A program made the translations under genes and the position numbers. From Candidatus Rokuibacteriota bacterium (GTDB taxonomy: Bacteria; Methylomirabilota; Methylomirabilia; Rokubacteriales; JACPHL01): a DNA stretch of 8,602 bases. The stretch spans positions 1 through 8,602 of the forward strand of contig JACPHL010000007.1 in the NCBI GenBank assembly GCA_016188625.1, written 5' to 3'. Positions 2,816 to 8,597 of the stretch are shown piece after piece. Position 1 is the first letter of the stretch. Each line of letters opens with the position of its first letter. The notes beneath the pieces were generated by a model. The model was not told where the DNA came from, did no database searches, and was given only the letters and a program-made list of their open reading frames with translations.

Positions 2816-3463
2816 GTGCTCAAGCTCTTGGCGATCGCGCTCCGTCTGGTTGGCCTGGGGATGATGGTCCCGATCCTCCTGTTCCTCACCGTCGCGGCCG
2901 CCCAGTTCGTCGATGGCGCGCGCGACTACCCGCTGATCAGGGAGGTGATCAGCCTCACGCGACCCGTCTCCCGCTCGATCCAGCAACACGTCCCGACGAA
3001 GATCAAGGGGTACGACGCCACGCCCTGGATGGTCATCGTTTTCGCCCTCGCCGTGCGGATGGCGTGTCGCAATTACGCCGACAGGCTCTGGAGCCACGCC
3101 GAGTACCTCGCCCACAAGCGCGCCCTGAGGCGCCTGCGCGCGGCCCGTCCCGCGAACGTGGAGGCGCTCAAGCCGGTCGAGGCGAAGCTCGAGGAGTTGA
3201 AGCAGGCGCCCAGGAAGGACCGCGACGCGCTCCTCCGGCAGTTCATCGAGGCGAAGAAGCGCCTGGAGGAGGAAAGAAGGACGAGCGCCCGGACCCCTCG
3301 GGCGACCAGGCCAGCCAGGGCGCCAAACCGGGGTGACGGGGCGCGCCGCCTTGACGGGGGACGCTGGCGCGCGCTCCGGTGCCGGCTGCGGAGGAGGCGT
3401 CGCGACGGGGTCGTGGCGGGCCCCGTTGCCAGGGCGCCAGATCGAGGGGAGGTGGTACACTAG
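2816..3463 (+). CDS. Small membrane protein with coiled coil; probable frameshift near C-terminus
   Basis: A 215-residue reading frame from a GTG start, with purine-rich GAGGCGGGGGAAG upstream. Residues 1-30 form a hydrophobic membrane segment (LGMMVPILLFLTVAAAQFV), and residues 68-84 (TPWMVIVFALAVRMAC) look like a second. Residues 95-153 are charged and helical, probably a coiled coil (VEAKLEELKQ, EAKKRLEEE). After Glu153 (codon 3272-3274) the frame becomes an Arg-rich string with poor third-position GC, typical of a wrong frame. Moving back one base at 3274 gives AAG AAG GAC GAG CGC and 20 high-GC3 codons ending at TGA 3334-3336, a 173-residue protein with a hydrophilic tail. So the annotated C-terminus is probably not the original one. 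The architecture resembles the membrane and linker part of a signalling protein, but no catalytic output domain follows. Function not recognised. Confidence 0.6.
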   Translation: MLKLLAIALRLVGLGMMVPILLFLTVAAAQFVDGARDYPLIREVISLTRPVSRSIQQHVPTKIKGYDATPWMVIVFALAVRMACRNYADRLWSHAEYLAHKRALRRLRAARPANVEALKPVEAKLEELKQAPRKDRDALLRQFIEAKKRLEEERRTSARTPRATRPARAPNRGDGARRLDGGRWRALRCRLRRRRRDGVVAGPVARAPDRGEVVH

Positions 3464-4249: not shown

Positions 4250-4576
4250 ATGCCCTGGCATCTCCGCGGCGAGTATTTCGAGAGCTGTAACTGCGAGGTC
4301 CTCTGCCCCTGCCTGCTCGGCCCGCGGGACGCCGGGGGCGCGGCCCTGGCGCGGCCCACCGAGGGGCACTGCGACGTCCCTGTGATCTTCCAGACCAAGG
4401 CCGGGGCCTTCGACGGCTTCGATCTCGGGGGGCTCAGCGCCGTCCTCACAATCTACGCCCCGGGCCCCATGGGCGAGGGGAACTGGACCGCCGGGCTCTA
4501 CCGCGACCACGGTCTGGCCTGGGAGATCGCCGGGCGGAACGGCTACTACGCCTCCTTCGACTGGTCGGGTCCCTAG
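4250..4576 (+). CDS. DUF1326 domain protein, C-terminally shortened
   Basis: The start of a DUF1326 protein, a cysteine-rich family of unknown function. The N-terminus MPWHLRGEYFESCNCEVLCP carries the family's cysteine cluster (C13, C15, C19, C21), with C41 in GHCDVPVIF. The family pattern then continues as FDGFDLGGLSAVLTIYAPGPMGEGNWTAGLY, roughly residues 55-84. Normal members run to about 190-215 residues; this one stops at 108, and the last 24 residues (from about YRDHGLAWE) no longer look like the family. I found no continuation in the other forward frames. The stop codon is followed directly by repeat copy A, so the 3' half was probably lost in a rearrangement. ATG at 4250 is preferred to the upstream in-frame ATG at 4220 because the family begins at MPW. 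Probably cotranscribed with the amidohydrolase. Confidence 0.7.
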   Translation: MPWHLRGEYFESCNCEVLCPCLLGPRDAGGAALARPTEGHCDVPVIFQTKAGAFDGFDLGGLSAVLTIYAPGPMGEGNWTAGLYRDHGLAWEIAGRNGYYASFDWSGP

Positions 4577-4587
4577 GAGGGAGCCTA

Positions 4588-4731
4588 TCCGAGTCACGCC
4601 GATGCAGCTCGCGCGCTCTCGACCCGCGGCTCGCGGAGGGGTGGTCCGCTTCGAGCGCGGGCTCTGCCAGCGCCACGTTGGGGGGAGGGTCGGAAGGGGG
4701 GCGTTAGCCCCCCTCCGAGTCAGCTAGGAGG
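4588..4731 (+). repeat. Dispersed double-hairpin repeat, copy A
   Basis: About 144 bases that match copy B (8454-8597) over their whole length, and copy C (reverse, 7059-7184) over the right half. Shared blocks are the left start TCCGAGT.ACGC.GATGC, the middle GGTCCGCTTCGAGCGC, and the right TTGGGGGGAGG...CTCCGAG. Hairpin 1 is 4655-4662 with 4666-4673 (one mismatch). Hairpin 2 is GGGGGGC-GTTA-GCCCCCC (4696-4713), extended by CGGA/TCCG around a bulged A. TCCGAGTCA occurs at both 4588-4596 and 4714-4722. The right end TAGGAGG is the SD of the amidohydrolase. It fills the 160-base gap after the DUF1326 gene; no coding gene is seen in it. No U-tract follows hairpin 2, so simple terminator action is unproven. 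Confidence 0.75.
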
Positions 4732-4736
4732 AGCCG

Positions 4737-5855
4737 ATGTACGGACAGTTCCGCGTCATCGACGCCGACGGCCACGTCATGGAGCCGGACGCCCTTTACG
4801 ACGACTACCTGGACCCGGGCTTCCGCCCCCAGCTCGCCGCGCTCCGCGAGGCCGCCCGGGCCCGCCCGATGCAGACCTTCTTCGGCCTCCTCCACACCAT
4901 CCGGAGCGGCCGCCCGCTGGGCGCGGTCGAGCCGTACGAGCCGATCGTGAGGACCGCGGGGTTCCTGGAGGTGCCGAAGGGCGGCTGGGACCCCCGGACG
5001 CGCCTGGCCGACATGGACGCCGAGGGGATCGACGTGGCGGTGGTGTTTCCCACCGGCGTCTCGAGCTTCTGCGCCCTCGACGACCCCGCCTTCGAGTCGG
5101 CGATGTACGAGGCCTACGCCCGCTGGGTGGGGGAGTACTGCCTGGCCGCGCCGGACCGGCCCCGCGCGGTGGCCGTCGTGAACATGCGCGATCCGGTACA
5201 GGGCGCCCGCGAGATCCGCCGCTGGCGCCGCGAGGCCTGGTGCGTGGGGATCTACTGCTCCGGCCACATCGACGGCAAACTCCTCGATCACCCCGACCTC
5301 TTTCCCCTCTGGGACGCCGCCCAGGGCGAGGACCTCCCCATCTGCTTCCACGGCGGCACGGCCCGCCCGCCCTACGGGTGCGGGACCTTCGAGTTCGCCG
5401 AGAGCTTCTTCCTCATGCACGCGGCCACGAACCCCTTCGAGCAGATGCGCGCCCTCGGGGCGCTGATCGGGGGCGGGGTGCTCGAGCGGTTCCCGCGGCT
5501 CCGGGTGGCCTTCCTCGAGGCCGGGGTGGGGTGGGTCCCGTTCTGGCTTGATCGGTTGGACGAGCACTACGAGCGGCTGCCGGCCTACGCCCCCTTGCTG
5601 AGCCGGGCGCCGAGCGCACACGTCAGGGGTCCCCAGGTTTTCGTCTCCTGCGACCCGGACGAGTCCACCCTGCCGGTCTGCGTCGATGCGCTCGGGGCGG
5701 AGCGGATCCTCTACGCCTCCGACTACCCGCACTTCGACTCCCGCTTCCCGAACACGGCGAAGCTCATCGCCGAGCGGCCGGAGCTCTCCGAGGAGGCCAA
5801 GCGGAAGATCCTGGGGGAGAACGCCCGCCGTCTCTACCCCCGGCTGGGTGGGTAG
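4737..5855 (+). CDS. Amidohydrolase family 2 (ACMSD-like) metal-dependent hydrolase
   Basis: A 372-residue TIM-barrel amidohydrolase of the Amidohydro_2 group (relatives include ACMSD and related decarboxylases and hydrolases). Metal-site residues: the N-terminal VIDADGHVMEP holds D11-x-H13 (a D in place of the first His of the classic HxH, a common variant); H205 in CFHGG; and D329 in YASDYPHFDS. E261 in FLEAGVGWVPFWLDRLDEHYE and H228 are further candidates for the active site. Length is normal. ATG is preceded by a strong AGGAGG SD five bases away, supplied by the right end of repeat copy A. Five bases separate its stop from the acyl-CoA dehydrogenase start, so the two are translationally coupled and likely act in one catabolic route, perhaps hydrolysis or decarboxylation of a ring or acid substrate before CoA-dependent oxidation. 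Substrate not determined. Confidence 0.88.
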   Translation: MYGQFRVIDADGHVMEPDALYDDYLDPGFRPQLAALREAARARPMQTFFGLLHTIRSGRPLGAVEPYEPIVRTAGFLEVPKGGWDPRTRLADMDAEGIDVAVVFPTGVSSFCALDDPAFESAMYEAYARWVGEYCLAAPDRPRAVAVVNMRDPVQGAREIRRWRREAWCVGIYCSGHIDGKLLDHPDLFPLWDAAQGEDLPICFHGGTARPPYGCGTFEFAESFFLMHAATNPFEQMRALGALIGGGVLERFPRLRVAFLEAGVGWVPFWLDRLDEHYERLPAYAPLLSRAPSAHVRGPQVFVSCDPDESTLPVCVDALGAERILYASDYPHFDSRFPNTAKLIAERPELSEEAKRKILGENARRLYPRLGG

Positions 5856-5860
5856 GCCGG

Positions 5861-7057
5861 GTGGACTTCTCCTACACCCCGCAGGAGGAGGCCTTCCGGG
5901 CCGAGCTGCGCGCCTGGCTCGTGGCGGAGCTGCCGGCGCACCGGGCCGAGTGGCCGGCCACCGACGACGAGTTCACCCTCCACCCGGACAAGAGCTTCGA
6001 CGCCTGCCTCGCCTGGCACCGGCGGCTCTGGAGGGGCGGCTGGGTCGGGATCGCCTGGCTGCGGGAGTACGGCGGGCGTGGGGCGACCCCGGTCGAGCAG
6101 ATGATCTTCAACGAGGAGATGGTCCGGGCCGGCGCCCCTCCGGGGGTCAACACCATCGGGCTCATGCTGGTCGGCCCGGCGCTGCTGGAGTGGGGGACCG
6201 AGGCGCAGCGGCGGCGGTTCCTCCCCCCGATCCTCTCCGCCGCCGAGATCTGGTGCCAGGGGTTCTCCGAGCCGGGGGCCGGCTCGGACCTGGCCGCGCT
6301 CCAGACCCGGGCCGTCTCGGAGGGGGACGGCTTCCGCGTCACCGGCCAGAAGGTCTGGACCTCGAACGCCCACCGGAGCCAGTGGTGCCTCCTCCTGGCG
6401 AGGACCGACCCGGCCGCGCCCAGGCACGCCGGGATCTCGTGCCTCCTGGTGGACATGCGGTCGCCGGGGATCACCACCCGTCCCCTCGTCCAGATCACGG
6501 GCGACGCCGAGTTCAACGAGGTCTTCCTCGACGACGTCCGGGTGCCCCGGGAGCACCTGGTCGGCCCGCTCCACGGCGGCTGGAAGGTCGCCGTCTCGAT
6601 CCTCATGTACGAGCGCGCCGGGATCGGCCACGTGACCGGCCTCCCCCATTACCTCCGCCTCCTGATCGACCTGGCCCGCCGGCACCCGCGCGAGGGCCGG
6701 CCCGGGGCGAGCCACCCAGCGGTCCGCCAGGCCCTGGCCCAGTGCTGGATCGAGGCCGAGGCCCTCAGGCTGACCGGCCTCCGCGCCGTCACCCGCCAGC
6801 TCCGGGGCGAGCCGCCCGGCCCTGAAGGATCGGTCCTGAAGCTCTCGTTTACGGAGACTTATCAGCGAATGGCTCAGACAGCGGCTGAAGTGCTGGGCCT
6901 CCACGGCCAGCTCTGGCGCGGGACGCCGCACGCCCCGGACGGCGGGCGCTGGGCCTTCCAGGCCCTCTTCGCCCGCCGCTTCGGGATCGCGGGGGGGACC
7001 TCGGAGATCCAGCGGAACATCATCGGGGAGCGGCTCCTCGGGCTGCCGAAGGGGTAG
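5861..7057 (+). CDS. Acyl-CoA dehydrogenase family protein
   Basis: A 398-residue FAD-dependent acyl-CoA dehydrogenase of normal length, which would oxidise an acyl-CoA at the alpha-beta bond and pass electrons to an ETF. The N-terminal helical domain begins MDFSYTPQEEAFRAELRAWL. The middle beta domain has WCQGFSEPGAGSDLAALQT (130-148) and VWTSNAHRSQWCLLLART. The C-terminal domain ends FGIAGGTSEIQRNIIGERLLGLPKG. The MCAD-type catalytic Glu position (YEGT) is Gly here; the likely base is E251 in ILMYERAGIGHV, as in the isovaleryl/long-chain/FadE-like groups. GTG start five bases after the amidohydrolase stop, with no strong SD of its own, pointing to coupled translation. Codons at 6821-6895 are unusually A/T-ending compared with the rest of the gene. 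Substrate chain not determined. Confidence 0.92.
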   Translation: MDFSYTPQEEAFRAELRAWLVAELPAHRAEWPATDDEFTLHPDKSFDACLAWHRRLWRGGWVGIAWLREYGGRGATPVEQMIFNEEMVRAGAPPGVNTIGLMLVGPALLEWGTEAQRRRFLPPILSAAEIWCQGFSEPGAGSDLAALQTRAVSEGDGFRVTGQKVWTSNAHRSQWCLLLARTDPAAPRHAGISCLLVDMRSPGITTRPLVQITGDAEFNEVFLDDVRVPREHLVGPLHGGWKVAVSILMYERAGIGHVTGLPHYLRLLIDLARRHPREGRPGASHPAVRQALAQCWIEAEALRLTGLRAVTRQLRGEPPGPEGSVLKLSFTETYQRMAQTAAEVLGLHGQLWRGTPHAPDGGRWAFQALFARRFGIAGGTSEIQRNIIGERLLGLPKG

Positions 7058-7058
7058 G
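7038..7058 (+). repeat. 21-base direct repeat, left copy
   Basis: Identical over 21 bases to 7185-7205. This copy encodes the last residues of the acyl-CoA dehydrogenase (GLPKG) and its TAG stop. Together the copies bracket 126 bases that contain repeat copy C, as a duplication of the insertion target would. The flanking bases on both sides differ, so the match is bounded. Confidence 0.8.
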
Positions 7059-7184
7059 ATACCCTCGGAGGGGGGCTCTGCCCCCCTTCCGAAACCTCCC
7101 CCCAAGGTTTCGCGGGCAAAGCCCGCGTTCGGAGCGGTTCGGTCAGGGGTGGGCGTCGAGTCAGTCGGGGTCGGCGAACGGGCA
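7059..7184 (-). repeat. Dispersed double-hairpin repeat, copy C (reverse)
   Basis: The reverse complement of this segment matches copies A and B from CCGCT.CGA.CGC through TTGGGGGGAGG to the terminal CTCCGAG; the clear core is about 7065-7136. Hairpin 2 is CGGA-GGGGGGC (7066-7076), loop TCT, GCCCCCC-T-TCCG (7080-7091). Hairpin 1 is CGCGGGC-AAA-GCCCGCG (7111-7127). A third, private hairpin is GAAACCT (7091-7097) with AGGTTTC (7105-7111). The outer part (7137-7184) aligns poorly with A and B. It fills the gap between acyl-CoA dehydrogenase and hisN and may affect read-through. Confidence 0.75.
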
Positions 7185-7205
7185 TCGGGCTGCCGAAGGG
7201 GTAGG
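7185..7205 (+). repeat. 21-base direct repeat, right copy
   Basis: Exact second copy of 7038-7058. It repeats the codons for GLPKG-stop outside any gene and, with its GAAGGGG, provides the SD for the GTG start of hisN at 7209. Before the duplication the acyl-CoA dehydrogenase stop would have lain only a few bases before that GTG. Confidence 0.8.
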
Positions 7206-7208
7206 GGG

Positions 7209-7967
7209 GTGGACAAGGCGCTCGGGGCGGCGATCGAGGCGGCCCGGGCCGCGGGCGAGATCGCCCTCCGCTACTACACCGGCCGGGTCGAGGTGGAGTG
7301 GAAGGCGGACCGGACCCCGGTGACGCGCGCCGACCGCGAGGCCGAGCGGGCGATCGTCGAGATCCTGGGCGCGGCCTTCCCGGACTGGGGCTTCCTCGGT
7401 GAGGAGTCCGGCGCGAGCGGGGGCCAGGGCGGGGTCCGGTGGATCGTCGATCCCATCGACGGGACCAAGAACTTCGTCCGGGGGATCCCGTTCTGGGCCA
7501 CCCTGATCGCCCTCGAGGAGGAGGGGGAGATCACCCTGGGTGTCATCCACGCCCCGGCCACGGGCGATCTGCTCTACGCCCGCAGGGGGGCAGGGGCCCG
7601 CGCCAACGGCGAGCCGGTCCGGGTCTCGTCGATCGCGACCCTCGCCGAGGCCACCCTGCTCCACGCAAGCCTCGGCTACCTCCGGGGCGAGCACTGGGAC
7701 GGCTTCGTCCGGCTCGTGGATGCCACCGAGCGCCAGCGCGGCTTCGGGGACTACTTCGCCTACACCTTCGTCATCCGGGGCCAGGCCGAGCTCATGCTCG
7801 AGGCCGACCTCAAGCCCTGGGACCTCGCCGCCGTCAAGATCCTCGTCGAGGAGGCCGGGGGGCGCTTCACCGACTTCGCCGGCCGCCCCACCATCTACTC
7901 GGGGACCGCGCTCGCCTCGAACGGCCTCGTCCATGACGAGGCCCTGCGTCTCATCAGGGGTCGCTGA
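7209..7967 (+). CDS. hisN: Inositol-monophosphatase-family phosphatase, probably histidinol-phosphatase HisN
   Basis: A 252-residue Mg-dependent phosphatase. Motifs: FLGEES (metal Glu at 65-66); the DPIDGT box at 81-86 within VDPIDGTKNFVRGIPFWATLIAL; and WDLAAVKILVEEAGG (204-218, metal Asp205). The FVRGIPFWATLIAL stretch and the C-terminal SGTALASNGLVHDEAL resemble the HisN type, which removes phosphate from histidinol phosphate in histidine synthesis, more than SuhB or CysQ. No other his gene is in view, so the specific substrate stays an inference; the superfamily is firm. The GTG at 7209 is chosen because the family begins at VDKALGAAIEAARAAGEIAL and GAAGGGG is placed as an SD; the in-frame ATG at 7149 lies inside the repeat insertion. 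The gene probably once followed the acyl-CoA dehydrogenase directly. Confidence 0.85.
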   Translation: MDKALGAAIEAARAAGEIALRYYTGRVEVEWKADRTPVTRADREAERAIVEILGAAFPDWGFLGEESGASGGQGGVRWIVDPIDGTKNFVRGIPFWATLIALEEEGEITLGVIHAPATGDLLYARRGAGARANGEPVRVSSIATLAEATLLHASLGYLRGEHWDGFVRLVDATERQRGFGDYFAYTFVIRGQAELMLEADLKPWDLAAVKILVEEAGGRFTDFAGRPTIYSGTALASNGLVHDEALRLIRGR

Positions 7968-8399
7968 GCGGCCCCGGGCGGTCAGGGAGGCGGCGAGCGC
8001 CAGGATCTCCTTCATGAGGCGGTCGAGCCGCCGCGGCTCGAAGGTGCCCCGCACCGCGCTCCAGAGGTCGGCGAGAAAGCGCGGGTCGTGGGCCATGGCG
8101 GAGAAGACATGGGGGACGCGCTCCGCGGCGTAGAAGGCCCGGATCTCCTCGAAGACGGCCCGGACCTCCGGGGTCGCGCTCTCGGAATCGATCATCTCCT
8201 TCTGGGCGCGGGAGAGGGCCCCGTCGGGCATCGCCCGCTTGGTCGCGCGGCCGAGCCCGATCCCCACCTCGGGGATCACCCGGGTCACCAGGCTCATCTT
8301 CGGCACGACGTCGATCCGGAACCACGCCTTCATTCCCTCCAGGAGTTGCTGGACCTCCGGGGGGAACGCCTCGGGCGACGGGATCCGCACGGTCTCCAT
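7968..8399 (-). pseudogene. AhpD-like / carboxymuconolactone decarboxylase-like gene, 3' half lost
   Basis: From an ATG at 8399 with a strong SD (AGGAGGG, about seven bases upstream), about 140 residues read like the N-terminal part of an AhpD-like protein. Visible segments are METVRIPSPEAFPPEVQQLL, VRAVFEEIRAFYAAERVPHVFSAMAHDPRFLADLW and EPRRLDRLMKEILALAASLTAR. In the family the next residues hold the active-site C-x-x-C and a histidine; here the homology stops around base 7980, 13 bases from the opposing hisN stop. The frame stays open to 7161 but there it is only the antisense of hisN. A reading frame one step over ends at TGA near 7954. The CxxC half is therefore missing and redox activity is not expected. 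The intact SD and start suggest recent loss. Confidence 0.6.
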
Positions 8400-8453
8400 G
8401 GATGTCCCTCCTCGTGGTGTCAGGGGTGAAGGGGCCCGGGGGCTAGAAGCCCG

Positions 8454-8597
8454 TCCGAGTAACGCTGATGCGGCTCGCGCTCTCGAGAGCCTCGACTCAC
8501 GGATGAATGGTCCGCTTCGAGCGCCGGCTTGGCCGGCGCAACCTTTGGGGGGAGGCTCGGAGGGGGGTGGAACCCCCCTCCGAGCATTAGAGGAGGT
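8454..8597 (+). repeat. Dispersed double-hairpin repeat, copy B
   Basis: Matches copy A in the same orientation from TCCGAGTAACGCTGATGC to TAGAGGAGG. Hairpin 1 is a perfect eight-base stem, GCGCCGGC (8521-8528), loop TTG, GCCGGCGC (8532-8539). Hairpin 2 is a perfect 11-base stem, CGGAGGGGGGT (8558-8568), loop GGA, ACCCCCCTCCG (8572-8582). A palindrome GCTCTCGAGAGC lies at 8479-8490. The right end GAGGAGG is probably the SD of a plus-strand gene that begins beyond the window. It also lies upstream of and divergent from the AhpD-like fragment. Confidence 0.75.

Follow-up and report, generated by a model that had tools for sequence, protein, structure and literature searches.

A mobile, structured repeat family of Rokubacteria with insertion-sequence-like left ends and a tie to stop codons

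MITEPsy1 of Pseudomonas syringae is a short, non-coding element whose terminal repeat matches that of an insertion sequence (IS). It has terminal repeats at both ends, duplicates CTAG or YTAA at its target and was shown to transpose (PMC3189936). For IS5, the target duplication was reported as YTAR, mostly CTAG (PMC5493358). For RUP of Streptococcus pneumoniae, with ~100 copies of ~107 bp, mobilisation in trans through an IS with matching ends was proposed, the partner being one IS630 element at TA (PMC2229807). CIR of Caulobacter is intergenic, has separate 5’ and 3’ stem-loops and lacks a terminal inverted repeat, and some copies of the Rickettsia palindromic elements are read in frame within a neighbouring protein (PMC2229807). 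IS1272, which is grouped with IS1182, is autonomous and reported to replace stem-loops without target duplication (PMC5678879).

The stretch analyzed here (the window) comprises 8,602 nt of a Candidatus Rokuibacteriota genome and contains three copies of a repeat, named A, B and C, which can be set beside these systems. Of the kinds described so far, CIR, RUP and the Rickettsia palindromic elements come nearest, CIR being compared by its published description. Unlike CIR, many copies carry an identifiable IS end. The core of the repeat is found with ends from two different IS groups at CTAG, whereas RUP has a single partner. In contrast to MITEPsy1, a hairpin forms the right end, any repeat there being degenerate at best, and the ends vary around a core that is conserved throughout the order. 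In-frame fusion as in Rickettsia is occasional, gives C-terminal extensions and, in the cases seen, affects gene ends only. With IS1182/IS1272 the repeat shares the terminal repeat and transposase family of its presumed partner and a link to stem-loops, but it carries no gene itself. The literature searched on Rokubacterial intergenic or palindromic repeats contained nothing relevant, and the family is apparently undescribed and unnamed.

Copies were delimited using alignments and a covariance model built from 20 copies. Copy A (4573..4727, plus strand; cmsearch 154.7 bits) is a full-length form running from CTAG to CTAG, delimited also with ORF predictions and Pfam. It contains hairpin 1 at 4655..4673 (8 pairs, the fifth mismatched) and hairpin 2 at 4690..4718 (12 pairs, one bulge). 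Copy B (8443..8590, plus strand; 158.9 bits) is likewise full-length, with CTAG at the left and TTAG at the right; its left end CTAGAAGCCCGTCCGAGTAACGCT (8443..8466) matches the IS1182-type terminal inverted repeat CTAGGAGC[CG]TGTCGGAGAAA of related genomes, and its hairpins lie at 8521..8539 and 8556..8584. Copy C (7056..7190, minus strand; 83.3 bits) is a core without the standard left end, with hairpin 2 at 7065..7092 and hairpin 1 at 7111..7127. A and B align without gaps over 131 nt at 76% identity, and A and C share an inverted match of 74 nt with 78% identity. These alignments and scores bear out the three-copy repeat recognized by a first-pass annotation of the window; the covariance model found no fourth copy in it. 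In that annotation, the left borders of A and B were set ~11-15 nt too far in: the left edge is the CTAG at 4573 in A and at 8443 in B, and the right edge is the CTAG at 4724-4727 and the TTAG at 8587-8590, respectively. Compared to shuffled sequences, B folds better (z of -3.9 and -5.6), and A and C do so more weakly (z of -1.0 to -2.0).

All three copies are located between predicted genes, as had been stated, with A and C overlapping or abutting neighbouring stop codons. The left CTAG of A includes the TAG that terminates the upstream DUF1326 gene (4250-4576), and downstream of A follows a ribosome binding site and the ATG of an amidohydrolase gene (4737). Of the 177 positions in the Pfam profile, the DUF1326 protein, which ends at this CTAG, matches only 1-67; insertion of copy A may have shortened the gene. 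Copy C is antisense to an acyl-CoA dehydrogenase gene (5861-7057) and abuts its TAG stop. A 21-bp direct repeat flanks C: the first unit (7038..7058, plus strand) is the end of the dehydrogenase gene, encoding LGLPKG and the stop, and the second (7185..7205, plus strand) matches it perfectly. Downstream of B, an RBS-like AGGAGG is found at the window end. The window begins with an ISL3-family transposase gene (PF01610, 84-956); it was considered as a partner and shows no link to the repeat, and none is expected.

The family extends well beyond three copies. A covariance model search gave at least 143 matches in the window’s genome (2.6 Mb, 344 contigs, 84% complete) and matches in 40 of 40 genomes of the same order, ranging from 1 to at least about 80 each, so that further copies in source and relatives, as anticipated by the first-pass annotation, do exist. 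When the core pattern was searched in 84,980 genomes, nearly all records among the matches listed were Rokubacteria. The two others among them were a Dormibacter record (L269), which lacks both hairpin arms and is regarded as a chance match, and a Chloroflexi contig (L347). Judged by the matches listed from public genomes, the core is virtually restricted to Rokubacteria; those carrying it live in soil and groundwater. No match to the element was obtained in PLSDB, which was searched with regard to plasmid transfer. Overall, Rokubacteria harbour a genuine repeat family that is widespread, structured and mobile.

From the alignments, the parts of the element are ordered as follows: CTAG, the left end GAGCCYGTCCGAGTAACGC, a spacer, hairpin 1 (consensus GCGCSGGC-NNN-GCCSGCGC), GGGGGGAGG, hairpin 2 (TCGGAAGGGGGGC-loop-GCCCCCCTCCGA), GAG, 3-5 nt and CTAG or a variant of it. 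The two-hairpin core measures ~75 nt and the full element ~150 nt. In other genomes the same ~75-nt core occurs with different left parts or none, and left modules and right-end linkers are lineage-specific. Within the window’s genome, several cores whose left part is different or truncated (L003, L025, L042, L094, L105-L107) have another recurrent sequence, about GTTCCGCTCGGGGCCGACGCCTCCC, immediately to their left. A rearranged copy (L093, contig C287, about 6200-6350) has its left end inverted and joined behind hairpin 2.

The pair changes named in the first-pass annotation are correct: pair 5 of hairpin 1 is a G:A mismatch in A, C:G in B and G:C in C, and the closing pair of hairpin 2 is C:G in A and C but T:A in B. 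Three copies are a thin basis for covariation, and within the window’s genome double changes occur in just 2 of 34 predicted pairs (pair 5 of hairpin 1, G:C 20 and C:G 5; closing pair of hairpin 2, C:G 25 and T:A 2). Across genomes the signal is strong. When 76 copies were aligned to the model, 98.9% of cells were paired, compared to 43-53% in partner-slid controls, and double changes were present in 8 of 20 pairs, values which 0 of 500 shuffles reached. A MAFFT alignment made independently from 34 diverse cores, in which some of the rows were out of register, gave 90.2% paired against 48-55% for slid versions. Since cross-genome pairing exceeds both shuffled and slid controls, the hairpins are maintained. 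The proposal of a dispersed structured repeat of REP- or MITE-like type with hairpins kept by paired changes is supported in this respect. Maintenance may act on a DNA hairpin or on an RNA, the covariation being compatible with either.

Three features had gone unmentioned in the first-pass annotation: a terminal repeat of an IS on the left side, boundaries formed by CTAG and the association with stop codons. TIR1 of IS1182-type elements is matched by the repeat’s left end (CTAGGAGCCCGTCCGAGTAA). Four elements in related genomes encode IS1182 transposases above the NCBIfam cut-off and are bounded at both ends by TIR1, CTAGGAGC[CG]TGTCGGAG, or close variants. Closely similar left ends are found on cores in G003, G025, G026, G035 and G039, and G014, which carries one of the IS1182 elements, belongs to the same genus as the copy-rich G026. 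Some cores of G025 start instead with TIR2, CTAGCAGGRTGCTGAAAAACTC, which is the terminal repeat of an IS5-group element; the transposase of the TIR2 group passes an IS5 cut-off. With TIR1 on some cores and TIR2 on others, ends from two IS groups, each flanked by CTAG, are joined to the core. Many cores in other genomes are without any TIR, and no core was found inside IS1182 or IS5 elements at the transposase loci. An IS1182/DUF772 transposase was found neither in the window’s genome, an 84%-complete draft, nor in several copy-rich relatives; the partner transposase is present in other genomes of the order. In another genome (G018:C205, L135 1500-1690), a compact ~180-nt MITE lacks the hairpin core and is bounded on either side by a terminal repeat of IS1182 type.

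The left CTAG positions are conserved in about 64-77% of 44 copies, and conservation is at background level one base further out. Exact CTAG at both ends is seen in 7 of the 44, and left and right tetramers are often unequal. The repeat is short, non-coding, present in many copies and mostly intergenic, and its terminal repeat matches that of an autonomous element at the left end only, the elements compared being those of related genomes. Of the TIR, no more than CTAGG and a shifted TCGGAG recurs at the right end. Because inverted repeats at both ends are absent, the element is not filed as a MITE, though it works most like one.

Gene calls were made with a codon-usage script, hence counts of gene context are approximate. 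Only 3 of 109 copies lie inside predicted genes. For 62 of 105 copies with complete right ends, the right end falls on the stop codon of an antisense gene, compared to 3.4% of random intergenic points, a comparison that uses present-day gaps. The stops at the right end are TAG (28), TAA (16) and TGA (6), against a background elsewhere of TGA 142, TAG 58 and TAA 18 (Fisher P 5.5e-12). In the set of copies whose left end is complete, stops at the right outnumber those at the left by 27 to 11, with one copy contributing to both counts (P 0.014). In the relatives, the right end is at an antisense stop in 33 of 60 copies, usually at a distance of 3-6 nt from the core; in 17 of the 60, a start codon follows closely. 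The element’s own end, which is able to supply TAG or TAA in two frames, could account for some of the excess of stops.

For the form present in this window, we infer trans-mobilisation as the best-supported account. The element is probably a chimeric, MITE-like, non-autonomous repeat specific to Rokubacteria which is moved in trans by CTAG-targeting transposases. Transposases of the IS1182 and IS5 groups would mobilise the TIR-bearing form and duplicate CTAG or YTAR. In GC-rich genomes, harmless sites of this kind would largely be stop codons, and copies would collect at gene ends; TAG and TAA stops would be selected because a YTAR, CTAG or YTAA target favours them. Hairpin 2, 3-5 nt behind a stop, might be kept as a tolerated and perhaps useful transcript-end structure, a step we consider weaker than the others. 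Against this account stand the right end, which is no proper inverted counterpart of the left TIR, the absence of a partner transposase from the window’s genome and several copy-rich relatives, and the many TIR-less cores of other genomes. Left and right tetramers often differ, and the duplication is deduced from such degenerate ends. Also, the 21-bp repeat around copy C and other long repeats are not explained, because the expected duplication is only 4 bp.

Differences between congeneric species show mobility or loss of the element, insertion and precise loss being indistinguishable at each single site. In genus g15 (G019, G033, G037), at least four collinear junctions carry the core in one or two of the species and lack it in another. 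The core-only empty sites in this genus showed no consistent duplication. One junction with the element is common to two congeners; there is also a junction at which G037 has an unrelated short element instead of the core. Two insertions are read through in frame and, as translated by eye, lengthen the upstream protein. In G033:C7 (L430, reverse strand 3074-3215 and 19530-19640), an in-frame C-terminal tail ends at or near the next start codon. Other repeats were also observed in this genus. Another short element, in G037 (G037:C42, L397 near 9785-10010), has inverted ends CCGGACTATTCATGAACG / CGTTCATGAATAATCCGG and lies at or near a stop codon. In G019:C166 (L361), this element is seen at 12658-12855 with a similar right end, again at or near a stop codon, and a further dispersed repeat of ~184 nt (555-738) occupies a gene junction at which it is absent from G033 and G037, with many matches elsewhere in both.

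A different mobile unit is conceivable, though with a rather low probability: the hairpin core itself would move by a one-sided mechanism of its own, and the IS left ends would be captured passengers. Such a core would have a fixed 3’ hairpin end, a variable 5’ end and target duplications of variable length, as in target-primed insertion; we know of no one-sided or target-primed insertion for such small bacterial repeats. The order-wide conservation of the core next to variable or missing left modules agrees with it, as do many copies in which the right end is intact while the 5’ end differs in position; such one-sided truncation could also result from selection protecting the gene at the right end. 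Further, flanking direct repeats scoring at least 12 were found in 11 of 245 core copies against 1.25 expected, in most cases with the right repeat beginning 2-9 nt beyond the core. The clearest long ones are those of copy C (21 nt), L313 (36 nt), L284 (44 nt), L213 and L254, and flanking repeats of 11-14 nt starting with CTAG are seen in L240, L342 and L353. However, some flanking repeats are tandem copies of the element (L013, L076, L110, L344) or neighbouring tRNA genes (L333). Those of L213, L254, L274, L284 and L313 are ends of coding sequences which differ mainly at synonymous positions, and paralogy or recombination of gene ends could explain them. A long repeat is missing from most copies, and the examined empty sites do not show a consistent one. 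In the window’s genome, 100 copies were generally at control level for long target duplications, direct and inverted, with the exception of copy C and a few others. The more specific version, in which a mobile two-hairpin core makes duplications of ~11-44 nt at gene ends and picks up different IS ends, seems distinctly doubtful.

It is also unlikely that the repeat is primarily a cis-acting RNA element (a transcript end, 3’-end stabiliser or leader hairpin) selected at gene junctions, with dispersal being secondary. The covarying hairpins would suit such a function, as would the position 3-5 nt after stops or a few nt before starts, the bias of full-left-end copies towards a stop at the right (27 against 11) and the junction with an element common to two congeners. 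Palindromes can be kept at the DNA level too, however, and the element is present or absent at orthologous junctions, with neighbouring genes differing between copies. There are no T-tract terminators, no T run following the hairpin. The first-pass suggestion of a structured-RNA family found no backing in Rfam, where nothing matched above the curated score and no family was hit at either threshold.

A REP/REPIN spread by a RAYT (Y1, TnpA-REP) transposase, the other form considered in the first-pass annotation, would fit the high copy number, intergenic position and palindromes, but is highly improbable and largely refuted: PF01797 has no match in the window’s genome and occurs in 8 of 40 relatives, missing from the copy-rich G003, G005, G025, G026, G033, G035 and G039, no core lies within the loci around Y1 genes, and the consensus has no GTAG/CGTC tag at the hairpin foot.

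One conserved structured core bearing ends from two IS groups clearly exemplifies terminal exchange among small mobile elements. The link to stop codons offers a simple account of the gathering of such repeats behind genes, namely a YTAR target in a GC-rich genome. For Rokubacteria, an order-wide repeat sits on gene ends by the hundred. It lengthens proteins in some species, and complicates annotation and assembly in these uncultured bacteria.
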